Assembly (NCBI GenBank): GCA_020073265.1
Contig: JAIQFN010000063.1
Location: 1-35,080, forward strand
Length of the DNA: 35,080 nucleotides
Origin: Terriglobia bacterium
GTDB taxonomy: Bacteria > Acidobacteriota > Terriglobia > Bryobacterales > Bryobacteraceae
Direction of reading: 5' to 3'
The position numbers were made by a program, and so were the translations under genes. Shown here in pieces: positions 7,408-34,883 of this stretch. Within the stretch, counting starts at the first letter, position 1. Each line of letters opens with the position of its first letter. Below the pieces are notes generated by a model. It saw only the letters and a list, made by a program, of their open reading frames with translations. It was not told the origin of the DNA and made no database searches.

Positions 7408-7423
7408 TTCGAACCGATTCGAA
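7408..7423 (-). promoter_or_regulatory. Operator-like palindrome upstream of the esterase operon
   Basis: Read towards the gene it is TTCGAATCGGTTCGAA, a 16-bp palindrome with one mismatched pair. Its 14-bp core TCGAATCGGTTCGA is identical to the site before the second TonB receptor. The hexamer 9 nt further on (AGAACA) is a poor -35 box, so the promoter itself is unclear. It belongs to the AATCG(G/A)TT series. Confidence 0.75.
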
Positions 7424-7578
7424 ACCCAGGTAGAATCATACATCAACCTAGAGCCGATGTAAAGGCTGGTAGGACATGCGGGGGCGTACGGCCCTGATAA
7501 CTCATTTATGGCAATGCGGATGCCATCTACGCATCACCTTCAGCGGCAGTTGTGGGTCGTTACCCTTCGCGAGCCCGA

Positions 7579-7615
7579 ACGAACCGGCCGTTCGTGAATG
7601 TTCGTGTCGATTCAC
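7579..7615 (-). terminator. Hairpin cluster after the first TonB receptor
   Basis: ACGAAC (7579-7584) pairs with GTTCGT (7590-7595), and GTGAAT (7594-7599) pairs with ATTCAC (7610-7615). They lie 30-65 nt past the receptor stop on the minus strand. No T-tract follows, so termination is only a possibility. Confidence 0.3.
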
Positions 7616-7642
7616 GTTCTGCTGTCCGCTATTGGTCGCGGC

Positions 7643-10588
7643 CTAAAACGAATATCGCAACGCGAACTGGATCTGCCGGTTCGTCCCGAATCCGGTGCTC
7701 GCGCTGAGAGTGCTGCGGCTTTGCCCAAACGTGGACGGAGAGCTCAAGCTGGCGGCGGGACTTCCGAACTGCGGTGTGTTGAACAGATTGAACATTTCAG
7801 CCCGGAACTGGACCTGCTGCCTTTCTGTCACGCTGAAGTTCTTGAACATCGAGAAGTCCCAATTGAACACATTCGGACCACGGTAGGTGTCCGCGCCTAA
7901 ACTGCCGAAGCTTCCAGCGGCCGGCACCTTGAACGCGGCGCGATTGAGCTGGTTGGTTGGCAGATCGTAATTGACGGGCACCACGGGCACTCCGGCGACC
8001 AGATCCGGCCTGCCGGTCAGCGAGCCGACGCCCACCGGATCGCATCCGCAAGTCACCGTGTAAGGCGTTCCAGTCCGCATGGTGGTGATGCCGTTGATCT
8101 GCCAGCCTGAGCCCACAACTTTGGGAATCTTGGGCGCGGCGGGAAGCTGATACGTGTAGTCGAACTCGAGATAGTGGGTTACGTCATAGGTGGCCGTGGC
8201 GTATTCTCGCGGTCCGGATGGATTCGGGCCCAGATTGTCCTCGAAGATGTGTTCCCAGGTATAGCTGGCATTCAATGTGAGCCCGGCCGTCAACCTTCTT
8301 TTGAAGCCGACTTGAAGGGCGTTGAAATTCGCGCCGGAGCCATTTTCGAACCACTGGATCGATCCGTACCTGGGGTTGCGCCGGGCGCCGGTGCCGGGCA
8401 CGATCGGATTGTATTCAAAGGTAGGATCGAGGTGCAGCGTGCGATTGCCGACGTAGCCCACTTGCAGCACCATGCTCCGCCCCAGTCCCTGCTGGATGTT
8501 GAAATTCGCCTGCTCGGTGTAGACGGGTTTCCAGTCGAAGGGCATGTAACGCACGGTCAGCGTGCCCAGGACATACTGGTTGATATTGGGGAAAGGAAAA
8601 CCACTCAGGCCGGGAAGTTGCGCGCGGGTTATGGAGCGCTCCAAGCTGGTACCCGCGATATTGGCAGGCATATATTGCCCGATGGCCCCCTGCAAGTTCG
8701 AGTAGAGCATCCCGACGCCTGCCCGGATCACCGTGTTCTTGGAGGCAAACGGGGTGTACGCGATGCCAAGCCGCGGACCGAAGTTGGTCTTAGGAGCGTC
8801 GATATAGGTAGATCCTTCCGGGTCCACGAATCCGGTCACCGGGTTGTAGTTGGCGCCCCTTCCGGCAGCCTCGCTCGGTGACGTGTCGTACTGGTATCGA
8901 AGGCCCAGGTTGAGCGAAAGCCTGGGGCTGACCTGGATGTCATCCTGCGCGAAGAAGTTGAAATTGCTCTCGCGCATGCCTACGCGCGGATAGCCGATGG
9001 TCGCGGCCGTAAACGGGCTGTTCGCGACGTAATCGTTGAGACTTTGGAAGGTCAGCGTCTCGCCGAAACCGCGCGCTTTGTTCATGTCGCTGCGGACGAT
9101 CTCGGCGCCGAACTTGAACTGCTGGTTTCCTTTGATCCAGGAGAGCGTATCGAGCCACGTATAGGACGTATTGCCGACGAACAATTCCGGCTGCGCGGGC
9201 CCGATCGGCGCCATTCCGCCGCCGATAGTCACCGCGGGGAAAGCGCGCGCGTCGTCGGTCAGTGCGCCGAAAATATCCGTGTGCACACGGTTAATGAACA
9301 TGCTCGCTTCGTTGACGATAGTGGATGAAACCGTCTTGGTATAGTTCAGCCGCCCCAGTTGCAACAGGCTCGGGACGTTGCGGGCTTGATTCGCACCCAC
9401 TCCCTGCCACAGAATGTTGGTCGCCTGGTTGACGTTGTAGCGAGCTGAAAAACGGTCGCTGGACGTGATCTGATAGTCCACTTTGAAGCCGCCCGTGTTT
9501 TCGCCGAGCACATCTGATAAATTTCCGAGGTACTGCGCCAGGCGCGAGTCGGCGGAGGAAACCGCGCCATTGGGCAATGGCAGGGTGTCGACAGCCGGCT
9601 GCAGAGCTGGCGCCAAGGAGGCCCGAAAAGTCGCGGTGGGAACAAACACGTTGAAGGTGTGGCCTCTCCGCTGGCGGACATCCTCGAGGTTCACGAAGAA
9701 GAAGAGGCGATCCCGCAGAATGGGTCCGCCAAAGGTGCCACCAAACTGATTCAGCCGGTAGGACGGCTTCTGCGCCGGTGGGGCGTTGAAGTAGTTCCGG
9801 GAGTCGAGCTTCTCGTTGCGGAAATACTCGAACACACTGGCGTGATACTGGTTGGTCCCGGACTTGGTGATGTAGTTGACCACTCCGCCAATGCCTTGCC
9901 CGTATTCCGCCGAGAACTGATTCTGCTGCACTCGCATTTCTTCCACGGCATCCGCGCTGATGCGATTGATTCGCGCCGCCGATTGATAGCCTCCGTCGGC
10001 CAGATCGGAATCCACTTGCCCGGAGTCCCCGCCATCCACCAGATACTTGGCCCCGGTTTCCCAGATTCGGGAGGGCGCGCCTCCCACCACCTGCGTTCCT
10101 CCGATGAGCATCACACCGGGAATCACGGCCAGCAATTGCGTGATGGACCGGCCATTCATGGGCAGGTCCTGGACGCGCTGGGCGTTCACCACGCCTCCCA
10201 GCGTCGTCGATGCGGTTTCCAGCAGCGGCGCCTCCGCGCTCACGGTGACTTTCTCGGACACTTCGCCCGCTTCGAGCGTGATTTCCAGCCGCACGCGATC
10301 CGCGGAGTTGATCGAGACCTTGTCTCGCACGTTGGTTTTGAATCCCGGAGCAGAGATGGTGATCCGGTAGCTGCCAACCGGCAACGATGGTGCGATAAAG
10401 TTCCCGGACGCGTCCGTTATGGATGAAACCGTCGCCGACGTACCTTGATTCTGAACATCCACTTTGGCGCCCGGCACCACGCCGCCGGACGAGTCAAACA
10501 CGGTACCCAGGATGGTGGCCGTATCCAATTGAGCGAGACAAGCAGAAGCTACAAAGAGCCCCAGTGCGACAAGTTTGTGGCAAGTCAT
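7643..10588 (-). CDS. TonB-dependent receptor, Oar-like, with carboxypeptidase-regulatory-like domain
   Basis: I start at ATG 10588 (MTCHKLVALG), giving 981 residues. This start is followed directly by a signal peptide (to about residue 20) and is preceded by GAAGAGG; the frame's earlier start would place 17 non-signal residues in front. An Ig-like regulatory domain (TILGTVFDSSGGVVPGA..., about 22-110) precedes the plug (LPMNGRSITQLL). The rest is a large beta-barrel ending in the outer-membrane signature ...FALRYSF. Such proteins import or bind oligosaccharides and other bulky ligands in Acidobacteria. It is transcribed alone from a good promoter with the shared operator upstream. The ligand is unknown; the surrounding glycoside and sugar-acid genes suggest a pentose-containing saccharide. 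Confidence 0.92.
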   Translation of the reverse strand: MTCHKLVALGLFVASACLAQLDTATILGTVFDSSGGVVPGAKVDVQNQGTSATVSSITDASGNFIAPSLPVGSYRITISAPGFKTNVRDKVSINSADRVRLEITLEAGEVSEKVTVSAEAPLLETASTTLGGVVNAQRVQDLPMNGRSITQLLAVIPGVMLIGGTQVVGGAPSRIWETGAKYLVDGGDSGQVDSDLADGGYQSAARINRISADAVEEMRVQQNQFSAEYGQGIGGVVNYITKSGTNQYHASVFEYFRNEKLDSRNYFNAPPAQKPSYRLNQFGGTFGGPILRDRLFFFVNLEDVRQRRGHTFNVFVPTATFRASLAPALQPAVDTLPLPNGAVSSADSRLAQYLGNLSDVLGENTGGFKVDYQITSSDRFSARYNVNQATNILWQGVGANQARNVPSLLQLGRLNYTKTVSSTIVNEASMFINRVHTDIFGALTDDARAFPAVTIGGGMAPIGPAQPELFVGNTSYTWLDTLSWIKGNQQFKFGAEIVRSDMNKARGFGETLTFQSLNDYVANSPFTAATIGYPRVGMRESNFNFFAQDDIQVSPRLSLNLGLRYQYDTSPSEAAGRGANYNPVTGFVDPEGSTYIDAPKTNFGPRLGIAYTPFASKNTVIRAGVGMLYSNLQGAIGQYMPANIAGTSLERSITRAQLPGLSGFPFPNINQYVLGTLTVRYMPFDWKPVYTEQANFNIQQGLGRSMVLQVGYVGNRTLHLDPTFEYNPIVPGTGARRNPRYGSIQWFENGSGANFNALQVGFKRRLTAGLTLNASYTWEHIFEDNLGPNPSGPREYATATYDVTHYLEFDYTYQLPAAPKIPKVVGSGWQINGITTMRTGTPYTVTCGCDPVGVGSLTGRPDLVAGVPVVPVNYDLPTNQLNRAAFKVPAAGSFGSLGADTYRGPNVFNWDFSMFKNFSVTERQQVQFRAEMFNLFNTPQFGSPAASLSSPSTFGQSRSTLSASTGFGTNRQIQFALRYSF

Positions 10589-10610
10589 GTGTGCGAAACC
10601 TCTTCGTGAT

Positions 10611-10660
10611 ACTCTAGACGAGCCTGAGACCGGTGTCAAGCATGAATTGAACCGATTCGA
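10611..10660 (-). promoter_or_regulatory. Sigma70-type promoter and upstream operator of the first TonB receptor
   Basis: Read on the minus strand, the operator-like TCGAATCGGTTC (10660-10649) is followed after 9 nt by TTGACA (10639-10634), a 17-nt spacer and TAGAGT (10616-10611). Transcription would begin about 16 nt upstream of the ATG. The geometry matches the promoters at 15165-15215 and 20315-20365. Confidence 0.8.
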
Positions 10661-10831
10661 TGGTCGTCTTTGGGTTTGGCGACGCTAGGCGTTAGACACT
10701 GGCAAAGAAACCAACAAGCCCCAACTAATCTTAGGGATAGTAGGATACTCTACGCGCTCGTGAAGGAAACCGGACGACCCATGGTCGGAGAGCCTGGTCT
10801 GAGACGATTTAGAATCGCCTGGTCGAGATCC

Positions 10832-11596
10832 CTAGACCATGTAGAAGCCACCGTTTAACTCGATGGTCTGCCCGTGGATATAGCGCGAGGCCTGCGAGCA
10901 GAGGAAGATGATGGCATCCGCCATGTCTTCGTCCGTGCCCAAGCGTCCCGCCGGAGTCGCAGCCACCACTGAATCCAGCATCTTGCGGTTGGAAAAGGCT
11001 TCGTGGAAATGGTTGTCGACGGTGCCCGGGCTGATGGCGTTTACGCGAATCCCCTTGGGAGCCAGTTCACGCGCCATGCCCTTGGTCATCGCGGACACGG
11101 CTGCTTTCGCGGCGGCATATACCACCGCTCCAATAGATCCGCCGGTGCGTGCGGCAATCGAGGTCACATTCACAATCACGCCGCCGGAGTTGCGGAGCAT
11201 GTGCGGAACGACGGCTTTGGTCAGGAACCAAACGCTCTTGGCGTTGAGCGTCATCACCCGGTCGAACAACTCTTCCGGATAATCCAGCAGGGGTGCGCGT
11301 TGGATCAGAGCGCCGGCATTGTTGATCAGAATGTCCAGGCCCTGGCAGTTTTTGTCCAGTTCCTGGATCAGGCAATGGATGCCGCAGGACGTGGTCAGGT
11401 CGGCGCAGACCAGCACACCATCGGCGCCCGCCTCACGGACCGCCGCGAGCGTTTGCTCGGCGCCTTTCCGATGGGAATGGTAGTGGATGACGACCTGCTG
11501 GACTCCGCTGCGTGCCAGAGCCACTGCCGTGGCCGCGCCGATTCCCCGCGAAGCGCCGGTAACACAAGCTTTTTTATTTACGAATTCGTTTGACAA
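10832..11596 (-). CDS. SDR-family NAD(P)-dependent dehydrogenase
   Basis: A 254-residue classical short-chain dehydrogenase/reductase. It has the cofactor motif TGASRGIG (about residues 13-20), NNAG (about 91-94), the catalytic Ser in VTSIA and the YAAAK Tyr/Lys pair, and the PG motif (ISPGTV) that follows. Most relatives are annotated as 3-oxoacyl-ACP reductase-like, but in a sugar operon the expected role is oxidation of an aldose or a polyol. Its start overlaps the end of the transporter gene by 19 bp, so it is the third gene of the GH172-MFS-SDR unit. In the proposed pathway it would oxidise the released pentose to the lactone or acid; that is inference from context. Confidence 0.88.
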   Translation of the reverse strand: MSNEFVNKKACVTGASRGIGAATAVALARSGVQQVVIHYHSHRKGAEQTLAAVREAGADGVLVCADLTTSCGIHCLIQELDKNCQGLDILINNAGALIQRAPLLDYPEELFDRVMTLNAKSVWFLTKAVVPHMLRNSGGVIVNVTSIAARTGGSIGAVVYAAAKAAVSAMTKGMARELAPKGIRVNAISPGTVDNHFHEAFSNRKMLDSVVAATPAGRLGTDEDMADAIIFLCSQASRYIHGQTIELNGGFYMV

Positions 11597-12876
11597 CTTA
11601 ACTCCCGAATAGACTCCGTTTCAAAATTGTCCAGCCGCTCGATCCGGCGCGTGGTCATCAAGACAATCAGCAGCGACACCGGATGCAGCAAGCCGGCTAT
11701 AGCGAATACAACTCCGTAACCGTGAAACTGGGCGAGCAGCATCCCTACCATCAGATTAAACAGCATAGCGCCGAAAGATCCCACGGCTCCCAACAGCCCC
11801 GCCACCGACCCCACTGACCGCGGCGCGAACAAATCCGTCACCAGAGTTTGCACGATGGTCGACCAGAACTGGTGCGCGAACAAAGCAATGCTGAAAAAGA
11901 CGATGGCCAAGCTGAGCCGGGATGACACGATCAGCAGCGAGAACGGCATCAGAGCGGCGCTCAGGCTGAGCGGGATTTTGCGCGCCGAATTCAGCGAGAA
12001 TCCACGTCTAAGAAGAGCACTGCTCAGCGCGCCTCCCGACAGGCTGCCTACGCCGGCGAAGGTGTATGGGATCCAGGCATAGTAGCCGATCTCTTGAATG
12101 TTTAAGCCGCGAACCTCGCCCAGGTACCGCGGCAGCCAGAAGATGAAAAAAAACCAGGCGGAATCGGTCAGGAACTTCGCCGTCATGAGTCCCCACACCG
12201 GCACGTATCGAAAAAACTGCCGGTAGGGCGCGGGTGGAAGCGCGACGGGAATCGAGCTCTCGAGCAACCGGCGTTCCGGTTCCGTGATCCGCGCGTGCCG
12301 CGAAGGAAGCGCGTAGAATTTCCACCACAGACCCGCCCACAAGATCCCGAACGTTCCGGTAGCAAAAAAGGCCCAGCGCCAATTTCCGAAAGCTACGATC
12401 ATGCCCGCGATCAGGGGAGGCGCGATCACGGCGCCGACGCTCGACCCGGTATTGAATATTCCGAATGCGGTGGATCGCTCCGCCGCCGGGAACCACTCTG
12501 AAACCACCTTGGCCGATCCCGGAAACGATCCGCCCTCCCCGAGACCGAGGAGGAAGCGAAAAATGGCGAGACTGCCTACCGAGGTGGCGAGCCCATGCAG
12601 GAAATTCGCGATCGACCACCACAGGATGACCACCGCGTAGCCGGCGCGCGTCCCCAGCCGATCCATGATTCGTCCGCCGCCCGCGTACATGAGCGAGTAC
12701 GCCAGCAGAAAGGCGGACTGCAGAGTCGAATACTGCCGATCCGATACGGGAATGTCACGCTGGAGCACTTTCACGGCGATTGGGAAACTCTGCCGGTCCA
12801 GGTAGTTGAGCGCCGTCGCCACCGCCAGCAATCCGGCGATCCACCAACGAAGATTCGGGATGCGGGCGGCCGTCAA
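11578..12876 (-). CDS. MFS transporter, anion:cation symporter (ExuT-like) family
   Basis: I start this at TTG 12876, giving 432 residues beginning MTAARIPNLRWW. The TTG lies one nt past the stop of the GH172 gene and is preceded by GGAG at a 9-nt spacing. The frame's first ATG (13023) would add 49 Arg-rich residues that read as out-of-frame GH172 sequence. About twelve hydrophobic segments and the N-terminal NYLDRQ motif, LGLGEGGSFPG and EWFPAAERS place it among hexuronate/sugar-acid symporters of the ACS family. It probably brings a sugar acid or monosaccharide into the cytoplasm for the neighbouring enzymes. The use of TTG may keep expression below that of the upstream gene. Confidence 0.87.
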   Translation of the reverse strand: MTAARIPNLRWWIAGLLAVATALNYLDRQSFPIAVKVLQRDIPVSDRQYSTLQSAFLLAYSLMYAGGGRIMDRLGTRAGYAVVILWWSIANFLHGLATSVGSLAIFRFLLGLGEGGSFPGSAKVVSEWFPAAERSTAFGIFNTGSSVGAVIAPPLIAGMIVAFGNWRWAFFATGTFGILWAGLWWKFYALPSRHARITEPERRLLESSIPVALPPAPYRQFFRYVPVWGLMTAKFLTDSAWFFFIFWLPRYLGEVRGLNIQEIGYYAWIPYTFAGVGSLSGGALSSALLRRGFSLNSARKIPLSLSAALMPFSLLIVSSRLSLAIVFFSIALFAHQFWSTIVQTLVTDLFAPRSVGSVAGLLGAVGSFGAMLFNLMVGMLLAQFHGYGVVFAIAGLLHPVSLLIVLMTTRRIERLDNFETESIRELSCQTNS

Positions 12877-12877
12877 A

Positions 12878-15115
12878 CTATTCGGCTCCGTTTCTCGCCT
12901 TGGATTTGGACGCGGATCCGCGCGACGCCGAGGCACGCCCAGCCTGCAGGGAAAACTCCGGCAGCACGTAGCTGTACGCGCTGTAGCGCATTTCGCTCCA
13001 CCCCAGATTCGGCGCCGGGCCACCCGGATACAGCGGGATTTGGACGGGCGTGAACTGGACGCGCACGCGGATGGCGGACCTGCCGCGCGTCAGTTCGCGC
13101 GGAACCAGAAATTCGTCGTCGCGGAAGCGGCGGTTCGAGGTCTGGAGAACGTGCTCGGAAGCTCCCAGTTCGTTGCGGTTGGGAGGATACGAATACACGC
13201 AGGTATTGGATCCAGCCAGGTACCAGATACCCGCGCTCCGCCACACCGGCTTGCTCGAAGCGGCATCGGCGATGAAAACCTCGGCGCGCTGATTTTGGAA
13301 GGAATAGTCCAGCTTGCGGCGCAGCATCACTCCCAGGTTCTTCGGCTCGATTTTCAGCGTGAACTCCGAGCGCGTGGTGGTGGTTCGTCCGTGATCCTTG
13401 GTGGCCGGGAATATTTCGACTCCATTGATCGTATCCGGGCCCCATTCGTAGCGCGATTCGATTTCATAAGGCTTGGAGGCATCCGGAGAAACGTAGTTGT
13501 GCTGGCGCTCGCTGGCTTCGTCGCCGACCGAAAGTTCATCGGTGCGGATGAGCGACGGAGCCGGCAAGCCATACCAGTAGGCCACGGTTTCGTAATGCTC
13601 CTTGGATTCGTTGGTGCCTCCATGCTCCAGGTGGATCACCGCATTTTTCCCGAACGGCATCGCGTCCGCCAGCAGGAAGCGGTAAGCCGATTCGATTTTG
13701 TCCTCCGGGCTCTTGGCCTCCTGCGGGGTCTTGGCGCCCACCGGATGGCCGGCGAAAGGCAAAGTCATGTTCAGGCCGCCCCAGTAGTCGCCGCCCCCAC
13801 CCCACTCCTCGGTTCCGGTGCCTTGGGCCTGGGGAGTGAGGCTGTCGTCGAAGAAAAACCGCGGGTCGCCTTCGAGCGTGCGCAGGATCGCATCATGCGA
13901 AAAAATGAACGAAGTTCCGATGAACTGGCCCGACCAGTCGCCGCCTCCTTCAACCTGCCGCGTGTCCAAAAGCTCGACGTCCTTGCCAACTTCCGGCGAC
14001 GGATGGTCGCGGTAGGTCGCGTGGAGATAGCTGGAATGATTGGCCGGATCCTTCAAGGGACCGAAACGGATGCTCCACTCGACATCCTTGAGATCCGCGC
14101 CGTCGACTCCCACCAGCTCGACCCGAGCGGAACGAAAGAACGGCATGGGAAGGTAGCAGCTCAGGTGAACTTTGCTTTCGTCGTAGCGGATCACCATCGG
14201 AAAGCTCTTCACCAGATACTCGCGGTTGTCGCGGTTGTAGAGGATACCCGCGCCGTAGAACAAAGAGACCGGTGCGTCGACGGAAGGCGTGGCGCGATCG
14301 TCCCAGGTAATCCGGAGCCGTGCGCGCGAGAACTCGATGGCTTGGTCCCTGGATACCGAAAACTCGAGCGCTCGCACGACGCCGGGTGAACCGGATTTGG
14401 TCCACACCACCGTTGACTCTCGACGCGGGATCGTGATCTTCCCCGACTTCTGCTGGATTCCCGACGCTCCCGCGCGCGGCGCGATGTCGCTCCCCGCTTT
14501 AGCCAGCAGATCGAGCACATCCTGCGCCGGAGGAGTGGCGGCATCCCAGGGCTGAATTGGGTGGGAAAGCTTGGTGCCTTTGACGAACTGATGATATATG
14601 TAGTAACCCGTTCCGTAAAACGTTCGCGAGTAGCCCATGCGGAACGTTTTTTCGAACCCGATCGGGATCCAGGAAAGATCGGCGCCTCTGGTCATCGACC
14701 AGGTGAACGCCAGCGGAGAAGGAAACAACTGGAGCGGCAGAAAGGTCGAATTTTCGACCGGATGCAATGGATCGGCGGTGCTGCTTTCCTGGACGATGTG
14801 ATCGGTGCCGTCGACTTCGTAGTGCCAGGGGCTTCCGTGCCAGTGGTTGTAACGGACGAAGTACAGGATGCCAGGGCCTGCGATATCCAGCGTAATGTTT
14901 TTGTCCGGCGCGAGCTGGTAGAGAAAGTGCGACGCGTCGGCGGTTTCGTTCCCTCCCGTGCGATCGTAGGTGCTACGCATATACGCTCGCACACCGATCC
15001 GCTGCAAGGGCCAGCGGTCCCACATGCGATAAGCGTCCAGGCCGGCTGGAACCACTGGCGGATCGGCCAGCAGCATGGCCGGCCACAGAAGAAGCAGAAT
15101 CAGTGTCGCTTTCAT
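12878..15115 (-). CDS. GH172 (DUF2961) family secreted glycoside hydrolase
   Basis: A 745-residue protein with a signal peptide (about residues 1-18). The family hallmarks are a YDRTGGN segment at about 50-56, a jelly-roll core (DIAGPGILYF...) and GTGTEEW at 432-438. The last corresponds to the GTGTEDY motif that carries a catalytic Glu in GH172. Characterised GH172 enzymes act on D-arabinofuranosides or fructofuranosides, so release of a furanosyl pentose or ketose is likely; which one is not decidable here. It is longer than the minimal DUF2961 core, with a second beta-rich half. It is the first gene of a unit with the MFS and SDR genes and has a strong promoter and operator-like site upstream. 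Confidence 0.87.
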   Translation of the reverse strand: MKATLILLLLWPAMLLADPPVVPAGLDAYRMWDRWPLQRIGVRAYMRSTYDRTGGNETADASHFLYQLAPDKNITLDIAGPGILYFVRYNHWHGSPWHYEVDGTDHIVQESSTADPLHPVENSTFLPLQLFPSPLAFTWSMTRGADLSWIPIGFEKTFRMGYSRTFYGTGYYIYHQFVKGTKLSHPIQPWDAATPPAQDVLDLLAKAGSDIAPRAGASGIQQKSGKITIPRRESTVVWTKSGSPGVVRALEFSVSRDQAIEFSRARLRITWDDRATPSVDAPVSLFYGAGILYNRDNREYLVKSFPMVIRYDESKVHLSCYLPMPFFRSARVELVGVDGADLKDVEWSIRFGPLKDPANHSSYLHATYRDHPSPEVGKDVELLDTRQVEGGGDWSGQFIGTSFIFSHDAILRTLEGDPRFFFDDSLTPQAQGTGTEEWGGGGDYWGGLNMTLPFAGHPVGAKTPQEAKSPEDKIESAYRFLLADAMPFGKNAVIHLEHGGTNESKEHYETVAYWYGLPAPSLIRTDELSVGDEASERQHNYVSPDASKPYEIESRYEWGPDTINGVEIFPATKDHGRTTTTRSEFTLKIEPKNLGVMLRRKLDYSFQNQRAEVFIADAASSKPVWRSAGIWYLAGSNTCVYSYPPNRNELGASEHVLQTSNRRFRDDEFLVPRELTRGRSAIRVRVQFTPVQIPLYPGGPAPNLGWSEMRYSAYSYVLPEFSLQAGRASASRGSASKSKARNGAE

Positions 15116-15215: not shown

Positions 15216-15290
15216 ATAGTAGATGACAATATGAAACTGTCTTTGTAACAATAGCTTGGGAAGCAATCATGGTTCCGGTCGCTATCAGTA

Positions 15291-25243: not shown

Positions 25244-25312
25244 GAGCGCGGCGCACAACGTGCCAGACTGCCAGCCCGCCGACAACGTATCGCAGCTTGG
25301 AAACCTGCCTGC

Positions 25313-26755: not shown

Positions 26756-26757
26756 GA

Positions 26758-27612: not shown

Positions 27613-27618
27613 ACGACT

Positions 27619-28389
27619 ATGCTGCGCATATCCATCACCGCACTCTTTTGCCTGGCTCTAAGTTTGCCGGCGCAGGTGATGCCGCCCGGCCCTTCCGGCG
27701 TCAGCTTGGGCCATCTTCACTTTCACAGCGACAACCCGGCCGCGCATGCGAAGTTCTGGACCGACGTGTTCGGCGCCCAGCTTACCAAGGTGGGGGATCT
27801 GGATGTCTACAAACTCCCAGGGTTCTTCATCGCGCTGAACCACGAGAAACCTGCCGGAGGGATGGCGGGATCCACCGTGCCGTCGATCGGGCTGAAGGTG
27901 AGGGATCTCAAGGCGACGCTGGCCAAAGCGAAGGCGGCTAATGCAAGAATCGCGGATCGAAGCCGCTCGCACGCCGTGATTTTTGGGCCAGACGATATCC
28001 GCATCGAACTAACCGCCGATCGAAAGCTCGCGACCGCCGTGGCGAGCGACACCATCCAGTTGAGTCTTCCCGACCCGGAAGCCGCCAGGGCGTGGTACGC
28101 CAAGACGTTCGGCGCGGTTCTCGGGCAGGGTGATTTCGCAACCCTCCCCGGCGTCAAACTCGATTTTTCGAAATCGGCCGCCGTTCCGGCAGGCACCAAG
28201 GGCCACGTGCTGGATCACATCGGTCTGGAGATTCGAGACCTGCGAGAGTTCACCAGGAAGCTCGCCGCCTCGGGACAAAAGGTCGACCTGATGTACTACA
28301 AGCTGCCGGACTCTGGCGTCGCCATCGGATTTGTGACCGATCCCTGGGGCACCTACATCGAGCTGACCGAAGGATTGATCCGCTTCTAG
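27619..28389 (+). CDS. Secreted VOC (glyoxalase-like) family protein
   Basis: This 256-residue protein has a predicted signal peptide (MLRISITALFCLALSLPAQ) and two vicinal-oxygen-chelate modules (about 28-135 and 140-256). The modules carry GHLHFHSDNPAAHAKFW, DHIGLEIRDLREF and DPWGTYIELTEG. Possible metal ligands are His in the first motif, His in DHIGLE and Glu in YIELTE. VOC proteins are lyases, isomerases or dioxygenases; the reaction here is unknown. Export is unusual, because most glyoxalases are cytoplasmic. It starts 6 nt after the FAH-family gene and ends 27 bp from the convergent lyase gene. Confidence 0.8.
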   Translation: MLRISITALFCLALSLPAQVMPPGPSGVSLGHLHFHSDNPAAHAKFWTDVFGAQLTKVGDLDVYKLPGFFIALNHEKPAGGMAGSTVPSIGLKVRDLKATLAKAKAANARIADRSRSHAVIFGPDDIRIELTADRKLATAVASDTIQLSLPDPEAARAWYAKTFGAVLGQGDFATLPGVKLDFSKSAAVPAGTKGHVLDHIGLEIRDLREFTRKLAASGQKVDLMYYKLPDSGVAIGFVTDPWGTYIELTEGLIRF

Positions 28390-28416: not shown

Positions 28417-30087
28417 TCATCTCCATCCCAGCGGCTGCTCATCCGGCACCCTGGCTAAACCGCGCACGGAATCGGGACTTCGGGCCGAAGCGTCGGTGAT
28501 CACGTTGAGGCACGCGGGTAAGCCGGAAGCACGGGCGCGCAGAAGCGCAGGCCGGATTTGATCCGGATCCTCCACCAGTTCGCCGTAACCGCCGAGTGCT
28601 TGAACCATCAGGTCATAGCGCGACGGATTCAGTTCCGTTCCAATGATCCTGCCCGGGCCGAAGTCTTCAATCTGCGACGTTCGCTCAATGCCCCACGCCG
28701 CATTGTTGCTGATCACAACCACGATGGGAAGTTTGTGCCGGACGGCGGTGTCCATCTCCATTCCGGTGAGGCCGAACGCGCCGTCGCCGGTTATACAAAT
28801 CACCTGCTGTTCCGGTCTCGCCACCTTGGCGGCGATCGCGAACGGGACGCCGACGCCGAGGCAACCGAACGCACCTGGTTCCAACCAGTGGCCCGGGGAG
28901 TTGACTTGAATGGCGACGCGCGCGAAGGAGAAGATGTCGCCCCCGTCGGCGACGACCACGGTATTGTCGTCGAGACTAGCCTGGATTTCGCGGCACAACC
29001 GGAGCGGATGGATCGGCCTGGCGTCACTCTTCGACAAGGCCTCCTGGCGTTGCCCGGCCTCGGTGTTCTTCGCCTGTAGCGACGCGAGCCAATCACCCGG
29101 GTGGCTGGTCGTCGCGCCGGTGAGTTGCCGCAGCACCGCTTTCGCGTCGCCAACGATCCCCACATCGACGGGACGGTTTCTGCCGATCTCGGAAGGATCG
29201 ATGTCCACCTGAATCACTTTTGCATCCTGGGCGAATCGCGGAGGCCGTCCGTAACCCATAACGAAATTGAATCGCGTCCCGATGACCAGGATCACGTCGG
29301 CCCGTGACAGAGCAGCGGATCTCGCCGCCGGAACATGCTGCGGGTGGACGCTCGGAATGCATCCTTTGGCCACCGAGGTGGTGAGCACCGGATATCCCGT
29401 CGCATCCGCAAACCGCCGCAACTCCTCGGATGCTCCCGACCACACCACGCCGCTTCCGGCGACAACCACGGGCCGTTTGGCCTTCGTCAGAAGCTGGATG
29501 GCCTTCGCCACCGCGTCGGGATCGCCCTGCGCGCGGGCGCCGGTGCGATAGTTCGCCGGCATTGCGGAATCGCTGAATTCAACACGAGCGCGCAGGACGT
29601 CAGTGGGTATCTCCACAAACACCGGACCCGGCCGGCCGGTGAAGGCCTGGCGGAAGGCGATGCTGAGATACTCGGGGATGCGGCCGGTCTCGAGGATGGT
29701 GCGCGACCACTTGGTGATCGGCGCCATGATTTCCACCTGGGGGATATCCTGCAGCGCGCCCAGCTCGAACTGCTTCAAGGGAGCTTTGCCTCCGATCACC
29801 AGCAGAGGGCTGCCCGCCTGATAAGCATTCGCCACGGCAGTAACAATGTTGGTGACCCCGGGCCCGGCCGACACCACCGCAACGCCGATCTTTCCCGTGA
29901 CCCTGGAAAACGCGTGAGCCATGTGGCCGGCGGCTTCTTCGTGGCGGACGTCCACGATGCGGATGTTCTCGTCCAGGCACGCGTCATAGATCGGCGCGAT
30001 GTGGCCGCCGTTCAAGCTGAAGATCACATCGACGCCTTCCTGCTTCAGCGTCTTGACTACCAACGTGCCGCCGCTTAGTTGGGCCAT
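28417..30087 (-). CDS. ThDP-dependent enzyme, 2-hydroxyacyl-CoA lyase candidate
   Basis: A 556-residue protein of the acetolactate synthase/oxalyl-CoA decarboxylase/2-hydroxyacyl-CoA lyase family. The cofactor-activating Glu is E50 (RHEEAAGHMA). The ThDP-Mg motif runs from GDG (434-436) to NN (461-462), and AGPGVTN is present. Family alone does not fix the reaction. The gene begins 2 nt after a mutase gene of the 2-hydroxyisobutyryl-CoA type and shares an operon with an acyl-CoA ligase. Cleavage of a 2-hydroxyacyl-CoA to a ketone or aldehyde plus formyl-CoA is therefore the best fit, as described for actinobacterial 2-hydroxyisobutyrate degraders. Acetolactate synthase is less likely, because no regulatory subunit is present. 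No formyl-CoA-processing gene is in view. Confidence 0.78.
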   Translation of the reverse strand: MAQLSGGTLVVKTLKQEGVDVIFSLNGGHIAPIYDACLDENIRIVDVRHEEAAGHMAHAFSRVTGKIGVAVVSAGPGVTNIVTAVANAYQAGSPLLVIGGKAPLKQFELGALQDIPQVEIMAPITKWSRTILETGRIPEYLSIAFRQAFTGRPGPVFVEIPTDVLRARVEFSDSAMPANYRTGARAQGDPDAVAKAIQLLTKAKRPVVVAGSGVVWSGASEELRRFADATGYPVLTTSVAKGCIPSVHPQHVPAARSAALSRADVILVIGTRFNFVMGYGRPPRFAQDAKVIQVDIDPSEIGRNRPVDVGIVGDAKAVLRQLTGATTSHPGDWLASLQAKNTEAGQRQEALSKSDARPIHPLRLCREIQASLDDNTVVVADGGDIFSFARVAIQVNSPGHWLEPGAFGCLGVGVPFAIAAKVARPEQQVICITGDGAFGLTGMEMDTAVRHKLPIVVVISNNAAWGIERTSQIEDFGPGRIIGTELNPSRYDLMVQALGGYGELVEDPDQIRPALLRARASGLPACLNVITDASARSPDSVRGLARVPDEQPLGWR

Positions 30088-30089
30088 GA

Positions 30090-31772
30090 TCAGAACGTGG
30101 GCGATTCCGCGTACGAGCCGAACACCTCGCGGAGCCGCTTGACAATCTCGCCCATCGAGGCTCGTGCTTCCACCAGCTCGATCGTGATGGGCATGAGATT
30201 CGCGGACGGATTCCTGGCCTGCTCCGCCAGCGCATCCAGAAGCGTCGCCACTCGGGAGTTGTCGCGGCTCGCGCGCACGGCCTTCACCCGCTGAATCTGT
30301 CGCGCCTCGACGTCTGGATCGTTGCGGTGGATTTCGATGGCGTCCTTTTGCGGAGCTTCGACGTACTTGTTCACTCCGATCACCGTGCGCTTGCCGGACG
30401 CCTGCGCGCGCGCGGACGTGTAGGCCGAATCCGCCAGTCCCCGCTGGAAATATCCGGCCTCGATAGCCGCTACGGCGCCTCCCAGCTCCTCGACTTCCTT
30501 CAGGATCCGGTTGACAGCCTCTTCGATTTCGTTGGTCATCGCCTCCACGTAGTAAGACCCGCCCAGGGGGTCGACTACTTCGGTGATTCTGGTTTCCTCG
30601 GCGATAATCTGCTGCGTTCGCAGCGCCACCTTCATCGCCATTTCACTCGGGATCGCGTAGGCTTCGTCCAGACCGTTGGTGTGCAGGGACTGGGCGCCGC
30701 CGAGCACTGCAGAAAGGGCTTCGAACGCCGTGCGAACGATATTGTTCAACGGCTGCGCCTTGGTTAGCGTCATCGCGGCAGTCTGGCAATGAAATCGCAG
30801 CCGCATGGACTCGGGCTTGCGGGCGCCGAAGCGCTGCTTCATGATCTTCGCCCAAATTCTGCGGGCAGCCCGGAACTTCGCCACTTCTTCGAAGAAATCC
30901 GCCTGCGCGACGAAGTAGAAAGAAAGCCGCGGCGCGAAGCAGTCGACCGCCAGGCCCGTCGCGGCCACCTGCTCCACGTAGGCGATGCCGTTGGCGATGG
31001 TGAACGCCAGTTCCTGAATCGCCGTCGCGCCTGCTTCGGACATATGATACCCGCTGATGTTGACCGGGTTGTAGCGAGGCAGATGCTCGGCGCCGTAGAC
31101 GATCATGTCGCGCACGATGCGCATGGACGGACGGATCGGATAGATCCATTCCTTCTGGGCGATGTACTCCTTGAGGATGTCCGCTTGGGTGGTGCCGGAG
31201 AGCTTGGCCAAGTCGAGGCTGCGGGATTTCGCGAGGGCCACATACATCGCGAGCAAGATCCACGCCGAGGGATTGATGGTCATCGACACCGAGATGCGCT
31301 CGAGATCGATCCCGTCAAACAAGTCCGCCATGTCGTCCAGCGTGTCGATCGCTACGCCCTCGCGGCCAACTTCACCGAACGATCGTGGGTCGTCGGAATC
31401 GTAGCCCATCAGCGTGGGCATATCGAAATCCACCGAGAGCCCGGTCTGGCCCTGAGCGATCAGATAGCGGAACCGGCCATTGGTGTCCGGCCCGGTGCCG
31501 AAACCGGCGATCTGGCGCATGGTCCAGGGGCGCGCGCGGTACATGGTCGGATACGGGCCGCGCAGGAACGGGTATTGCCCTGGAAGACCGATGTCTTCGA
31601 AGGGCGTATCGGCGATGTCTTCCGGCGTGTAGACACGTTGCACCGGAAGGCCGGAAGCCGAACGGTATTCCTGCTGCGACTCAGGCTGCCGTTCCAGGAA
31701 ATCCCGCAGCTCGTTCTGTTCCCAGGCTCGGCGCTGCGATCGAGCTTTTTCCACATCTGTTGGATCAGGCAT
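30090..31772 (-). CDS. hcmA: B12-dependent acyl-CoA mutase large subunit, 2-hydroxyisobutyryl-CoA mutase type
   Basis: I start at ATG 31772 (560 residues, MPDPTDVEKA). The frame also opens at a TTG 15 nt upstream. It lacks the C-terminal B12-binding domain of one-chain mutases; that domain is the separate small subunit at 34197. The acyl-CoA-binding barrel is complete: RGPYPTMY, DFDMPTLMGYDSD, GTTQADILKEY, NISGYHMSEAG (His at about 243), RFHCQTAA and LHTNGLDEA. The decisive residue is Ile88 in WTMRQIAGFGTG. Methylmalonyl-CoA mutases have Tyr there, while HcmA has Ile. The expected reaction is interconversion of 2-hydroxyisobutyryl-CoA and 3-hydroxybutyryl-CoA. The start overlaps the meaB stop by 8 bp. 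Confidence 0.85.
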   Translation of the reverse strand: MPDPTDVEKARSQRRAWEQNELRDFLERQPESQQEYRSASGLPVQRVYTPEDIADTPFEDIGLPGQYPFLRGPYPTMYRARPWTMRQIAGFGTGPDTNGRFRYLIAQGQTGLSVDFDMPTLMGYDSDDPRSFGEVGREGVAIDTLDDMADLFDGIDLERISVSMTINPSAWILLAMYVALAKSRSLDLAKLSGTTQADILKEYIAQKEWIYPIRPSMRIVRDMIVYGAEHLPRYNPVNISGYHMSEAGATAIQELAFTIANGIAYVEQVAATGLAVDCFAPRLSFYFVAQADFFEEVAKFRAARRIWAKIMKQRFGARKPESMRLRFHCQTAAMTLTKAQPLNNIVRTAFEALSAVLGGAQSLHTNGLDEAYAIPSEMAMKVALRTQQIIAEETRITEVVDPLGGSYYVEAMTNEIEEAVNRILKEVEELGGAVAAIEAGYFQRGLADSAYTSARAQASGKRTVIGVNKYVEAPQKDAIEIHRNDPDVEARQIQRVKAVRASRDNSRVATLLDALAEQARNPSANLMPITIELVEARASMGEIVKRLREVFGSYAESPTF

Positions 31773-32739
31773 TTTTGTTTGTCTCAATGAACTGCGCCAG
31801 TTCGGAGGTCAACGCTTTTACATATTTATATGGCGAAACCTCCCGGCGCGCTATTTGATCGATCATTTGCGCGGTCCCGCAGGCCGGCTCCTCGATCATC
31901 CTCTCCAGCCCCTCGCGCACGATTCTCGAAACCCTGGCCTTGGCGATCTCGAGCTGCCGGCGTTGGAGTCCGTTCGATTCTTTCAAGGCGCTCATGTGAC
32001 CCAGCACGGAATCGAGCAGCGCCTCGACACCTTCGCCAGTCGCCGCTGTGCATGACAACACCGGCGGCGTCCAGCCGGACCGACCGGCGGGGCCAAGGTT
32101 CAACATGGCGAGCAAATCCGCGACGGACTGGTCGGCTCCGGGCCGATCCGACTTGTTGACGGCGTGCACGTGCGCAATCTCGAGAATGCCGGCCTTCAGA
32201 GTCTGGACATCGTCGCCGAGACCAGGCACGGTGACAACCACTACGGTGTGCGCCAGACCCATCACGTCCACTTCATCCTGTCCCACGCCGACGGTTTCCA
32301 TGAACACCAGGTCCATGCCGGCGGCATCCATCAAGTCCGCGGAATCCTCGGCTGCGCGGCACAGTCCGCCGAGCGCGCCGTGGCTGGCCATGCTGCGGAT
32401 GAAGATGCCGAGCTCGCTCGAAAGGTCGTTCATGCGGATGCGATCGCCGAGAATGGAGCCGCCCGAATAGGGAGACGAAGGGTCCACGGCGATAATTCCA
32501 GTCCTTAGATTGCGCTTCGCCGCCGCCAGCGCCAGCCTGCGGGTCAATGTGCTTTTTCCGGTTCCGGGGCTGCCGGTAATGCCGATGATCTGCGCCCGGC
32601 CGGTGCATGGATACAGCAGCCCGCACAACTCCTCGGCTCGCGGTCCGCCCTGCTCCACCCAGGTGAGGCCCCGCGAAAGGGCCCGGCTGGACCCAGCGCG
32701 AATCTGTTGCGCCAGTATCTCCGGAGTCTCAGACTTCAT
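31765..32739 (-). CDS. meaB: MeaB/ArgK-type G-protein chaperone for the mutase
   Basis: I start at ATG 32739 (MKSETPEIL, 324 residues); the frame is open further up, but only inside the ligase gene. Motifs are the P-loop GSPGTGKST (56-64), METVGVGQDE (switch/base-off region) and the guanine-binding NKSD. MeaB proteins use GTP to load intact cobalamin cofactor onto acyl-CoA mutases and to eject damaged cofactor. The gene lies between ligase and mutase, overlapping the ligase by 11 bp and the mutase by 8 bp. It is therefore the dedicated chaperone of this mutase (called MeaH in 2-hydroxyisobutyryl-CoA mutase clusters). Confidence 0.9.
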   Translation of the reverse strand: MKSETPEILAQQIRAGSSRALSRGLTWVEQGGPRAEELCGLLYPCTGRAQIIGITGSPGTGKSTLTRRLALAAAKRNLRTGIIAVDPSSPYSGGSILGDRIRMNDLSSELGIFIRSMASHGALGGLCRAAEDSADLMDAAGMDLVFMETVGVGQDEVDVMGLAHTVVVVTVPGLGDDVQTLKAGILEIAHVHAVNKSDRPGADQSVADLLAMLNLGPAGRSGWTPPVLSCTAATGEGVEALLDSVLGHMSALKESNGLQRRQLEIAKARVSRIVREGLERMIEEPACGTAQMIDQIARREVSPYKYVKALTSELAQFIETNKNA

Positions 32740-34192
32740 CTTGCCGCTCTCCGGCGGAATGGCGATACAGTTCGCGGTCGTCCACCACCCTGCGCGCCTT
32801 GAACTCATGGCGGGGCAGTTCGCCGGACGGAACCAGCTCGACTACCGGGTGAACTCCCAGGCGCGTCCGTAGCCGCTCCCGAATGGTGACACGCAGCGCG
32901 TTCAGTTTTTCGGGATCGCCGTGCGAGGGAGCGTACTCGGCGCGAACCAGAAGCTCATCCATCGTTTCCTCGCGGGAGATGATCACCTGGAATTCGCCTC
33001 CGAACCCTTCCGTCGAGCGCAGCGTATCTTCAATGGTACTCGGATAAATGTTTTCACCGCGCACAATGAACATGTCGTCGTACCGGCCGTAGAGGCCGTC
33101 GGGCAATCTCGGATAGGTGCGCCCGCAGCGGCACGGCTCGTCGATCCAGCGCGTGCGGTCGTTCGATACCAGCCGGATCATGGGTTGAGAAGTACGCTCC
33201 AGATGCGTGTAGACGGGCGTGCCCTCATATCCATAAGGGACCGGCTGGTAGCTCTGGGGATCGCAGACCTCGGTATACACGATGTCCTGGTAGAGGTGCA
33301 TTCCGGTGCGATGCCGGCATTCGCCGCTGCTCATCCAGGGCGTCATTTCGGCCATGGTGCCAAGGTCGATGCAAGCGCCGCCGAAAGTTTCTTCGATCTG
33401 GTGCTTGGTGGAAGGAATACCGGCTCCCGGTTCACCGGAGAAGAACAGCGTGCGGATTCCGAACGACCGCGGATCGACGCCCTCGCGCCGGGCCGTCTCG
33501 GCGAAGTGCAACGCGTAAGAGGGCGTGCTGTACAGCGCGGTCGGCTGCATTTGACGGGCCCATTCCACCGCCATGCGGGTCTGTCCAGCGACGCCCGCGC
33601 CGAACGGGAACACCGCCGCTCCCAGGCGCTCGCAACCCTTCAACGCGCCCCAGGATCCCAGGTAGAGGCTGAAGAACGAACAAATCAGAACGCGATCGCG
33701 TGGGCGGATCCCCGCGCCCCACAACACGCGTGCGTGCGCCTCGCCGATGCGTTCCCAATCTCCGTTGTCGATTCCAAAAACCGTGGGCCTGCCGGTGGTG
33801 CCGCTGGTGCCGTGGATGCGTGCGACTCGCGAGGGATCGACACACAAGTAGTCGCCAAAGGGCGGATGCTCAGCCTGCGCCTGGCGCAAGTCCGCTTTCT
33901 GGATCACTGGGAACTTTGGGAGATCCGCCAGGCACTTCAATGTCGCCGGCGAGACTCCCGCTTGTTCCCATCTGGATCGGTAGAAGGAACTGCGCTCCCA
34001 GGCGTATTGAATCTGTTTTTGCAGCTTGCGGAAGATGATATCGTCCCGCTCGCCGGGATCGGCGCATTCGATTTCCGGATACCAATGGTCCGAAGCCTCG
34101 GCAGGTTGATAGTTCGCACGATAACCTGGAGGCCAGACGGTGAGATCCAGGCCACGCAGAGTTTCCAATCGACGCAGATCTATCCGCGGCAT
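32729..34192 (-). CDS. PaaK-like AMP-forming acyl-CoA ligase, 2-hydroxy-acid-CoA ligase candidate
   Basis: A 487-residue member of the phenylacetate-CoA ligase-like branch of adenylate-forming enzymes. It has the P-loop HGTSGTTGRPT (127-137), LGTMAEMTP, a CRCG zinc-knuckle-like pair, GRYDDMFIVRGENIYP and the C-terminal catalytic Lys465 in HEFKARRV. No phenylacetate genes (paaABCDE, paaG, paaZ) are nearby. Its position between the mutase small subunit (4 bp upstream) and meaB argues that it activates the mutase/lyase substrate, for example 2-hydroxyisobutyrate, to its CoA thioester. The true substrate is not visible in the sequence. Confidence 0.83.
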   Translation of the reverse strand: MPRIDLRRLETLRGLDLTVWPPGYRANYQPAEASDHWYPEIECADPGERDDIIFRKLQKQIQYAWERSSFYRSRWEQAGVSPATLKCLADLPKFPVIQKADLRQAQAEHPPFGDYLCVDPSRVARIHGTSGTTGRPTVFGIDNGDWERIGEAHARVLWGAGIRPRDRVLICSFFSLYLGSWGALKGCERLGAAVFPFGAGVAGQTRMAVEWARQMQPTALYSTPSYALHFAETARREGVDPRSFGIRTLFFSGEPGAGIPSTKHQIEETFGGACIDLGTMAEMTPWMSSGECRHRTGMHLYQDIVYTEVCDPQSYQPVPYGYEGTPVYTHLERTSQPMIRLVSNDRTRWIDEPCRCGRTYPRLPDGLYGRYDDMFIVRGENIYPSTIEDTLRSTEGFGGEFQVIISREETMDELLVRAEYAPSHGDPEKLNALRVTIRERLRTRLGVHPVVELVPSGELPRHEFKARRVVDDRELYRHSAGERQDEV

Positions 34193-34196
34193 GAGT

Positions 34197-34613
34197 TCAG
34201 CGCGGACCCCGGGCGCTCACCAAGTCGCGGATCAGTTGCGGGATCGAGTCCAGCGGAGTTTCCTGGGAGAAGACCCTCGCCACGCCCATCTCGAGCAGTT
34301 TGGGCACATCCTCATCCGGGATCAGGCCGCCGGCCACCACCGCGATATCCTCGGCGTCCGCGTCCCGCAGCAGTTTGATGATCAGCGGAAATGCGGTCAA
34401 GTGGACGCCCGAGAGAACGCTGACGCCGAGAATGTCGACGTCTTCCTGTACCGCGGCGATCACTACCTCTTCGGGCGTGCGATGCAGTCCCGTGTAGATC
34501 ACGTCCATGCCGGCGTCGCGCAGTGAGCGAGCCACGACGCGAGCGCCTCGATCATGACCGTCTAATCCCACCTTTGCGACGAGGACACGGATCGGGTGCG
34601 GAGTTGTCGCCAT
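34197..34613 (-). CDS. hcmB: B12-binding small subunit of the acyl-CoA mutase
   Basis: I start at ATG 34613 (138 residues, MATTPHPIRV); a GTG 42 nt upstream is in frame but would add a non-conserved tail. The cobalamin-binding signature is complete: DGHDRG (18-23, His20 as the cobalt ligand), SVLSG (65-69) and AGGLIPDED. In 2-hydroxyisobutyryl-CoA mutase small subunits a conserved Asp sits in a QDTP segment, where methylmalonyl-CoA mutase has Phe. This protein has QETP (Glu118), a conservative change that supports the same subgroup. It is the first gene of the five-gene operon, while its large-subunit partner is the fourth. AGGAG occurs 14 nt before the ATG, which is far for a ribosome site. 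Confidence 0.87.
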   Translation of the reverse strand: MATTPHPIRVLVAKVGLDGHDRGARVVARSLRDAGMDVIYTGLHRTPEEVVIAAVQEDVDILGVSVLSGVHLTAFPLIIKLLRDADAEDIAVVAGGLIPDEDVPKLLEMGVARVFSQETPLDSIPQLIRDLVSARGPR

Positions 34614-34706
34614 TGTTCTGTTCAGATCTCCTGGAAAACGTCCAACCTTAACCACAGGTTAGCGCGTACAGCGAACTTCGAAAAGGCCCACCGTCGTGGC
34701 TGCGTG

Positions 34707-34732
34707 GGCAGTTAACTGCCGAATCGATTCAC
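34707..34732. promoter_or_regulatory. Two adjoining palindromes upstream of the mutase operon
   Basis: GGCAGTTAACTGCC (34707-34720) is a perfect 14-bp palindrome. It directly abuts GAATCGATTC (34721-34730), a perfect 10-bp palindrome of the series found throughout the island. They lie about 95-120 bp upstream of the mutase operon start and could bind two different regulators. Confidence 0.68.
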
Positions 34733-34866
34733 TGGCGGAGCCCTTGCTCGATTGCCAAGTTTATCGCGGCCCGGTCCCGGCGGTCAAGGCCGCGCACCCT
34801 GAACCTTCAGATAAGGATGGCCGAGCAGCCATGGTCGATGCTAGACTCACCTGAGGGAGACCTCGG

Positions 34867-34883
34867 GTCTGAATCGATTAGAC
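34867..34883 (+). promoter_or_regulatory. Operator-like palindrome before the PQQ dehydrogenase
   Basis: GTCTGAATCGATTAGAC is a 17-nt imperfect palindrome with the AATCGATT core. It shares ATCGATTAGA with the plus-strand reading of the GH172 site (15207-15216). It ends 33 nt before the ATG, so it probably overlaps the promoter or early leader. Confidence 0.7.

Follow-up and report, generated by a model that had tools for sequence, protein, structure and literature searches.

Regulators of the LacI family mostly bind DNA without their ligand, and in the sections of a family-wide survey drawn upon here their operators are as a rule even palindromes with a central CG (1173 of 1303 regulators), with intersite distances that peak at 13, 22 and 32 bp (PMC4052901). 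According to the excerpted text on the Escherichia coli gal operon, the GalR dimer sits at -60.5 and +53.5, with promoter P1 repressed and P2 activated from the upstream site, and GalR closes a 113-bp loop through dimer-dimer contact with the help of HU (PMC4693257). According to the part of its description used here, SuxR of Xanthomonas, a member of the LacI/GalR family, was shown by experiment to repress a TonB-dependent receptor locus (PMC1790865). Here we describe a palindrome that recurs around a LacI-family gene (15510-16601) in a stretch of DNA from a Terriglobia bacterium; this stretch, called the window below, is an entire contig (C45) of 35,080 bp in a genome of 6.41 Mb in 131 contigs. 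We hold with good confidence that the palindromes are operators of this LacI protein, common to it and a near-copy on contig C55, and that a repressing dimer governs a dispersed regulon through them. This would be an ordinary kind of control system with an unusually regular layout.

The recurring palindrome in the window and the genome

The regulator gene, its leader and the sites of the window are listed here, the sites without strand. Scores come from a window matrix built from the nine window AAYCGRTT sites, which themselves score 10.5-20.6 with it, and from an orthologue matrix built from 12 sister sites of other genomes, with no sequence of this genome included.

15510-16601, plus strand: LacI-family regulator of 363 amino acids (aa), with helix-turn-helix (HTH), hinge IARSLK and periplasmic-binding-protein-like effector domain; Pfam PF00356, PF00532, PF13377
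15479-15494: LacI leader sequence GCGAAAACGGTTCCTA, directly before the LacI start; AAAACGGTTC is common to this leader and that of the C55 paralogue, just ahead of the start codon
7408-7423: operator TTCGAACCGATTCGAA, before the esterase/PSD1/DUF1501 unit, centre at about +12 of the predicted promoter
10646-10661: operator ATTGAACCGATTCGAT, centre 14 nt from TTGACA (about -50), TonB-receptor-like gene 7643-10639
15201-15216: operator ACTAAATCGATTAGAA, at about -51 of the promoter of the DUF2961(GH172)/MFS/SDR operon
15291-15306: operator CTCAAATCGATTGAAC, 90 bp from 15201, between the GH172 operon and LacI
19954-19969: operator-like CGCAAAACGATTCGAA, before the 18637-19941/xylonate-dehydratase unit, scores 13.6 (window matrix) and 13.1 (orthologue matrix)
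20137-20152: weak site GGGTAATCGGTTCACG, 177 bp upstream of 20314, scores 10.5 (window matrix) and -1.3 (orthologue matrix)
20314-20329: operator CTCGAATCGGTTCGAT, 14 nt from TTGACA (about -51), TonB-receptor-like gene 20373-23639
23657-23672: sister-class site CACAAAACGTTTCGAA, 149 bp upstream of 23806, scores 8.8 (window matrix) and 15.1 (orthologue matrix)
23806-23821: operator TCCGAATCGATTCGTA, 16 nt from TTGACC (about -52), unit 23873-28389
34718-34733: operator GCCGAATCGATTCACT, at about +25 of the predicted promoter of the mutase/ligase/lyase operon
34868-34883: operator TCTGAATCGATTAGAC, before the truncated gene at 34917, at about -125 of the mutase-operon promoter, 150 bp from 34718

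All ten site strings quoted in an initial annotation of this DNA occur where it had placed them and lie outside coding sequence in our own gene calls, confirming the palindromes as a real recurring feature; its statement that they stand beside nearly every transcription unit holds for the units from 7358 rightwards only, and the weak site at 20137-20152 was absent from its list. The sites of the window, of C55 and of the orthologous loci are even palindromes with a central CG. Five of the eight window sites scoring at least 16 fall 140-30 bp upstream of starts, as set by our own gene caller, whose starts err late.

The core AAYCGRTT occurs ten times in the window, with nine copies in 2,540 intergenic bases (7.2% of the window; the count leaves out bases 1-1836), where a first-order model expects 0.18, and the tenth, at 2427, in coding sequence; none of 127 comparison palindrome classes exceeds two intergenic copies. 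Across the genome there are 65 matches to GAAYCGRTTC (50 of them listed and fetched) against 11 for the reversed control pattern; the window makes up 0.55% of the genome and contains five of the 65. For AAYCGRTTNGA, counted on both strands so that a perfect palindrome counts twice, we found 42 matches (25 intergenic and 17 coding), compared with 11 for the reversed control (two intergenic and nine coding), and the eight matches inside the window were all intergenic.

To class every genome match of AAYCGRTTNGA and GAATCGATT, we used a simple gene caller based on codon usage in the window; this census covers AAYCGRTT sites that have GA in one flank or include GAATCGATT, with AACG-centred sites outside its range. 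The 96 distinct sites comprised 38 intergenic and 58 coding ones, and the 13 that scored at least 18 with the window matrix were without exception intergenic. Equal frequency of the motif in coding or random intergenic DNA had been named in the initial annotation as evidence against the proposed regulon; in the part of that comparison that was run the distribution was far from equal, as all eight sites outside the window with this score were intergenic and at most 250 bp upstream of a predicted start, with 12-16% of the DNA there non-coding according to the same caller. At lower scores outside the window the intergenic share was 4 of 12 (16-18), 7 of 15 (14-16), 3 of 23 (12-14) and 8 of 30 (below 12), which makes 36 coding against 14 intergenic sites between 12 and 18, and noise makes up most of these weak sites. 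The strong sites outside the window are found on C55 (three of the eight), C20, C50, C123, C52 and C85, near genes that include TonB-receptor-like, TonB protein, DUF6259, Cu-monooxygenase-like and DUF2961 genes; the gene near the C20 site has no Pfam match. The C85 site (L149 1974, C85:3174; score 18.6) precedes a gene with a TonB C-terminal domain and, if a true operator, would tie the TonB energiser to the regulon of the receptors.

Such palindromes could be non-regulatory, whether by chance, as a repeat family or as a methylation target, and this would fit the many weak genome sites that are coding as well as the loose count of the 14-mer motif, which with up to three mismatches matches 20 times in the window, compared with an average of 10.2 in shuffled sequence (20 was reached in 3 of 100 shuffles), and is only weakly significant. 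Already unlikely, this explanation appears extremely improbable when the restriction to intergenic DNA is set beside the promoter geometry, the conserved sites in diverged promoters and the cross-species matrix described below. As a significance test the loose consensus with mismatches was dropped as too weak, and the core and the exact-pattern census were used instead. Also rejected were the broad pattern GAANCGNTTC (247 genome matches against 134 for the reversed control) and the 14-mer with two mismatches (121 against 62), whose matches were largely GC-rich words, many of them coding in the classed loci. With one mismatch, the 14-mer had matches in nearly all of 61 genomes, 10-17 in this and same-genus genomes and 0-14 in the others, and was uninformative about the regulator.

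The LacI protein, its copies and its orthologues

The 15510 protein combines the HTH, periplasmic-binding-protein-like domain and hinge of a LacI-family member (by Pfam, with IARSLK aligning with ARSLK of RbsR). Its closest solved structures are RbsR, CcpA and PurR, RbsR being both its top NCBIfam model and its top solved relative, and it falls below the NCBIfam equivalog cut-offs for RbsR (267.3 bits against 531) and for GalR (176.7 bits against 557). Inspected by eye, its C-terminal tail has no heptad pattern.

Two further LacI genes are present in the genome, one on C55 (G000:C55:41007-42065) whose product is 92% identical to the 15510 protein and one on C50 (C50:83308-84339) whose product is 49% identical. 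The window and C55 proteins have nearly identical DNA-binding domains and effector domains that differ at scattered positions, and from this near-identity the C55 copy should read the same sites. Its cluster has TonB-receptor-like genes, an esterase, PSD1/DUF1501 genes, a DUF6259 protein and oxidoreductases of its own, several of them preceded by operators; identity is 64% between the C55 and window esterases and 54% between the receptors 20373 and L047:13876. It is possible that the two proteins split their tasks, the C55 or the window LacI alone governing most sites and the other being redundant or tuned to another ligand, which is how one might read the scattered differences in effector domains joined to near-identical DNA-binding domains. 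We find such a division rather doubtful, however, because the operators show no two separate groups and the same site class occurs at both loci.

A scan of genome contigs for LacI gave 80 loci, of which 19 served as orthologues and 59 for control, without the partial matches at L183 and L210. The 19 orthologues (L153-L170 and L175) are Acidobacteriota loci with a near-full-length LacI match of 46-57% identity, and most of them carry a sister palindrome, with core GAAACGTTTC, adjoining the regulator gene. At a threshold of 15 and with all 12 training sites, the orthologue matrix has near matches in 14 of the 19 loci (28 near against eight elsewhere), and five matches in the 1.15 Mb of the 59 other LacI loci. 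When each locus was scored with its own sites excluded from the training set, 12 of the 19 matched at 15 or above within 300 bp of LacI, and there were 24 near matches in 11,048 bp against seven in the 319,197 bp elsewhere. The window matrix at 13.5 places a site within 300 bp of LacI in six of the 19 loci (L154, L158, L159, L163, L165 and L166), five of these sites being intergenic and that of L163 inside a called gene; two of four non-acidobacterial loci (L172 and L174) also match it, kilobases from LacI.

These results bear on whether a different, unseen regulator binds the palindrome, with LacI a mere neighbour. Although CG-centred palindromes are not unique to LacI proteins, the motif class follows the LacI orthologues across genomes and is concentrated beside the LacI gene, and, as the initial annotation had said of the 15510 protein, no other regulator was found among the 23 window proteins scanned with Pfam; another binding protein is very unlikely. 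The LacI reading of the palindromes is strongly supported, and of the single LacI regulon proposed in the initial annotation the link to the LacI clade has held across genomes, with the qualifications that the C55 near-copy is also present and that the regulon extends well beyond the window.

On the window and the loci L047-L050 (114 kb), the orthologue matrix gives 16 matches of at least 12, all 16 intergenic. Seven of its matches are in the window (7408, 10646, 15201, 19954, 20314, 23657 and 23806) and belong to the ten sites reported initially; 15291, 34718, 34868 and 20137 score below 12 and rest on the window's own pattern. With this matrix 23660-23671, which had been termed degenerate, scores 15.1 and 19957 scores 13.1, so that both seem to be genuine members of the AACG-centred sister class. 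On C50, sister sites precede two TonB-receptor-like genes (L050 6494 scores 17.9 and L050 15734 scores 13.5), and a further one, L050 52 with a score of 13.4, lies some 220 bp ahead of the LacI paralogue there; these sites hint that a parallel regulon may exist whose operator differs slightly. Recognition-helix residues were rejected as the sole cause of the base change between orthologues (AACG) and this genome (mostly ATCG or ACCG), since L156 has the recognition helix of the window protein and yet an AAACG site, TTTGAAACGTTTCAGA, between its LacI gene and a divergent TonB-receptor-like gene.

Promoter geometry and the sign of control

A scan for sigma-70 promoters with generic weights covered the surroundings of 34 operators, which were chosen by hand and include weak window sites. 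At seven of the 34 it found a promoter scoring at least 13.5 with the -35 element starting 13-16 nt from the operator centre, which puts that centre at about -50 (window 10646, 15201, 20314 and 23806; L047 13726; L048 2698 and 18698). Random displacement of the operators gave a mean of 0.42, and none of 20,000 trials reached seven, the 12-16 nt interval of this test having been chosen after inspection. The genes behind these sites are mostly unrelated, although receptor-like genes account for three of the seven and the promoters at 20314 and L047 13726 are paralogous. The gaps between operator core and -35 element that the initial annotation had given were reproduced, at 9 nt for 10649-10660 (TTGACA) and 15204-15215 (TTGACG), both read on the minus strand, as well as for 20315-20326 (TTGACA), and at 11 nt for 23807-23818 (TTGACC). 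Other operators are centred at about 0 (L048 6404), +5 (L091), +12 (7408), +25 (34718) and +41 (L047 13817). The same scan, at a threshold of 13, found few promoters at orthologous loci, with operators at -50 in L158 and at +10/-55 in L154 and no promoter at most sites; in L163 and L169 the operator lies within the -35/-10 spacer (about -15), with a partner at -105 in L169.

Operators also occur in pairs. Of six strong pairs (both members scoring at least 16, within one intergenic region), two are spaced 90 bp apart (window 15201/15291 and L047 19515/19605), two 91 bp (L047 13726/13817 and L152 1895/1986), one 88 bp (L048 6316/6404) and one 150 bp (window 34718/34868), and five of six at 88-91 bp has a probability of about 5e-6 under a post hoc model of uniform spacing from 20 to 199 bp. 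Pairs with a weaker member are spaced 149 bp (23657/23806), 177 bp (20137/20314) and 196 bp (L048 18698/18894). One predicted promoter is bracketed by two operators at L047 (-50/+41), at L048 (-88/0) and in the window (34868/34718, -125/+25). The DUF6259 promoters on C55 and C52 have kept both operators and the 90/91-bp spacing, with the DNA between them diverged.

The DUF6259 proteins themselves (L047 17375-19516 on C55 and L152 2182-4001 on C52) are 80% identical. At L169 (9838/9928) and L170 (9434/9524) two GAAACGTT-type palindromes stand ahead of the orthologous LacI gene, at a spacing of exactly 90 bp; in L169 the second palindrome falls within the predicted -35/-10 spacer. Two GAAACG palindromes 90 bp apart at L174 (3299 and 3389; Leucobacter weissii), about 6.6 kb from LacI, are possibly a chance pair.

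We infer from these arrangements that a dimer of the 15510 or C55 protein would insert into the central CG of TCGAA(T/C)CG(A/G)TTCGA and, without effector, would repress uptake (TonB receptors, MFS), sugar release (GH172, esterase) and oxidation (the dehydratase, the unit with a protein like alpha-ketoglutaric-semialdehyde (KGSA) dehydrogenase, and the CoA-mutase unit). At many promoters the first operator would lie at about -50, just upstream of -35, and a second, often 88-91 bp off, at about 0 to +41 or further upstream; two dimers might then flank the promoter and, in the manner of GalR at gal, form a small loop. We take the dispersed LacI-family regulon to be real, its genes to be probably repressed, and its paired operators to be perhaps looped.

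Repression is preferred as the sign of control because several operators overlap the promoter or start region (L048 6404, L091 and window 7408, together with the spacer positions in L163 and L169) and because promoters with a -50 site deviate little from consensus. The same regulator might instead activate from the same sites at the -50 promoters, its dimer contacting RNA polymerase beside the -35 element as GalR does at gal P2. An upstream site next to an intact promoter, placed alike before several unrelated genes, suits activation by contact, and in the excerpted account GalR at O_E activates P2 while it represses P1 (PMC4693257). Promoters with a -50 site are nevertheless so near consensus (TTGACA/TATAGT and similar) that they should need no activator, the other sites overlap the promoter or start region, and -50 would be about one helical turn from gal O_E (-60.5), which represses P1. 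Activation is unlikely in our judgement, and we keep it as a rival because site position alone cannot give the sign.

Several results weigh against control by a repressing, perhaps looping, LacI dimer. The commonest operator position, -50, is one from which LacI-family proteins can also activate. The 19 orthologous loci include two near-identical pairs (L161/L162, about 95%; L169/L170, 96%); seven of them (L155, L158, L160, L164, L165, L166 and L168) have no near match when own sites are left out of training; and the window matrix at 13.5 has six near matches in 11,048 bp and another six in the 319,197 bp elsewhere. L049, which holds the C50 paralogue, has no site of at least 12 with the orthologue matrix or of at least 13.5 with the window matrix. 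The leader sequence at 15479-15494 was considered as an autoregulatory operator and demoted, as it scores 4.6 and 0.2 with the two matrices despite its conservation at C55, and its standing as an operator is doubtful. Two of the five pairs at 88-91 bp are paralogous promoters, so that about four are independent, and operator pairs at orthologous loci, spaced 90 bp in L169/L170, are elsewhere spaced 55, 65, 68, 83, 87, 100, 113, 169 and 199 bp; as these spacings vary, 88-91 bp is not a fixed property of the LacI clade. Finally, the 15510 protein has no similarity to the lac tetramerisation tail (the phmmer match to 1lbg ends at residue 314 of 360), for which reason any looping would have to rely on gal-like contacts.

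Probable target genes and comparison with known systems

The units that these operators would control, beyond the receptor and esterase genes named above, are as follows.

12878-15115, minus strand: DUF2961 protein (GH172 type), heading an operon with the MFS transporter 11578-13023 and the SDR 10832-11596
16578-18554, minus strand: YjhG/YagF-type D-xylonate dehydratase, 1176 bits against a cut-off of 808
23873-28389, plus strand: target unit of Cu-monooxygenase-C/cytochrome protein, aldehyde dehydrogenase, FAA-hydrolase-fold and glyoxalase-fold proteins
28417-34655, minus strand: target operon of 2-hydroxyacyl-CoA-lyase-like TPP enzyme, mutase large subunit, MeaB, CoA ligase and separate B12-binding subunit

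The aldehyde dehydrogenase (25313-26755) is nearest to KGSA dehydrogenase, at 604 bits and below the cut-off of 770, the product of 26758-27612 has an FAA-hydrolase fold, and the literature excerpts on GH172 link that family to D-arabinan-degrading enzymes. Together with the dehydratase, these enzymes suggest oxidation of a pentose through pentonate to alpha-ketoglutarate, which we take to be a pathway of the Weimberg type, and with such a pathway among the targets the effector would probably be a pentose, a pentonate or a keto-deoxypentonate. The layout of the 28417-34655 operon presumably recalls 2-hydroxyisobutyryl-CoA mutase/lyase operons. A PQQ-dehydrogenase had also been counted among the regulon members in the initial annotation; that label is unconfirmed, as the gene product is a 54-aa fragment with no Pfam match. 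The 18637-19941 protein, whose window copy likewise has no Pfam match, recurs near operators on several contigs (L152:509-1855, L050:15882-18443 and L119:3239-4579), in relatives of the Cu-monooxygenase-C/cytochrome type that are 45-49% identical to the window copy. Near the left end of the window lies a fragment of an AAA_21 ATPase (319-972; AbiEii-like Pfam label).

More broadly, we propose tentatively that a clade of Acidobacteriota LacI proteins exerts genome-wide control of TonB receptors and pentose/pentonate catabolism through a standard loop module (-50 plus a partner 88-91 bp away), with no lac-type tail and, in this genome, with two near-identical regulators on one operator set. Judged by titles and the beginnings of abstracts, the open-access literature yielded no description of such an Acidobacteriota LacI regulon, and the literal 14-mer, and RbsR together with its core sequence, were not found there; the terms 'Acidobacteri', 'Koribacter' and 'Solibacter' are absent from the main text, the part used here, of PMC4052901. 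With a defined operator, TonB receptors and enzymes could be assigned to a common substrate pathway, genes of no recognised family among them. The repeated -50 position and the pairs at 88-91 bp would allow a direct test of small-loop control by a regulator that lacks the lac tail.

The E. coli lac repressor shares the LacI fold, and its O1-O3 spacing, about 92 bp, is close to the 88-91 bp found here, but its tetramerisation tail has no similar counterpart in the 15510 protein. The operator of RbsR has a CGAAACGTTTCG core, which resembles the operator of the orthologues; the targets here are, however, not a ribose operon, and the protein reaches 267 bits against a cut-off of 531. The regulons in the excerpted survey are like this one in their central-CG even palindromes, upstream sites, sugar-catabolic targets and regulator adjoining its targets, and differ in spacing, with peaks at 13, 22 and 32 bp there against strong pairs at 88-91 bp here (PMC4052901). 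SuxR, as far as the part of its description used here goes, likewise controls a TonB-dependent receptor, an inner-membrane sugar transporter and a catabolic enzyme, but at a local sucrose locus (PMC1790865), whereas many unlinked promoters and probably pentose-type substrates are involved here. By analogy, the arrangement resembles that of GalR at gal most: both would involve a dimeric LacI-family protein with operators up- and downstream of a promoter, 113 bp apart at gal in the excerpted account (PMC4693257) and 91 bp apart at L047 13726/13817 (-50/+41), with the differences that the regulon here is dispersed over many promoters and that the 15510 protein is not a GalR equivalog.

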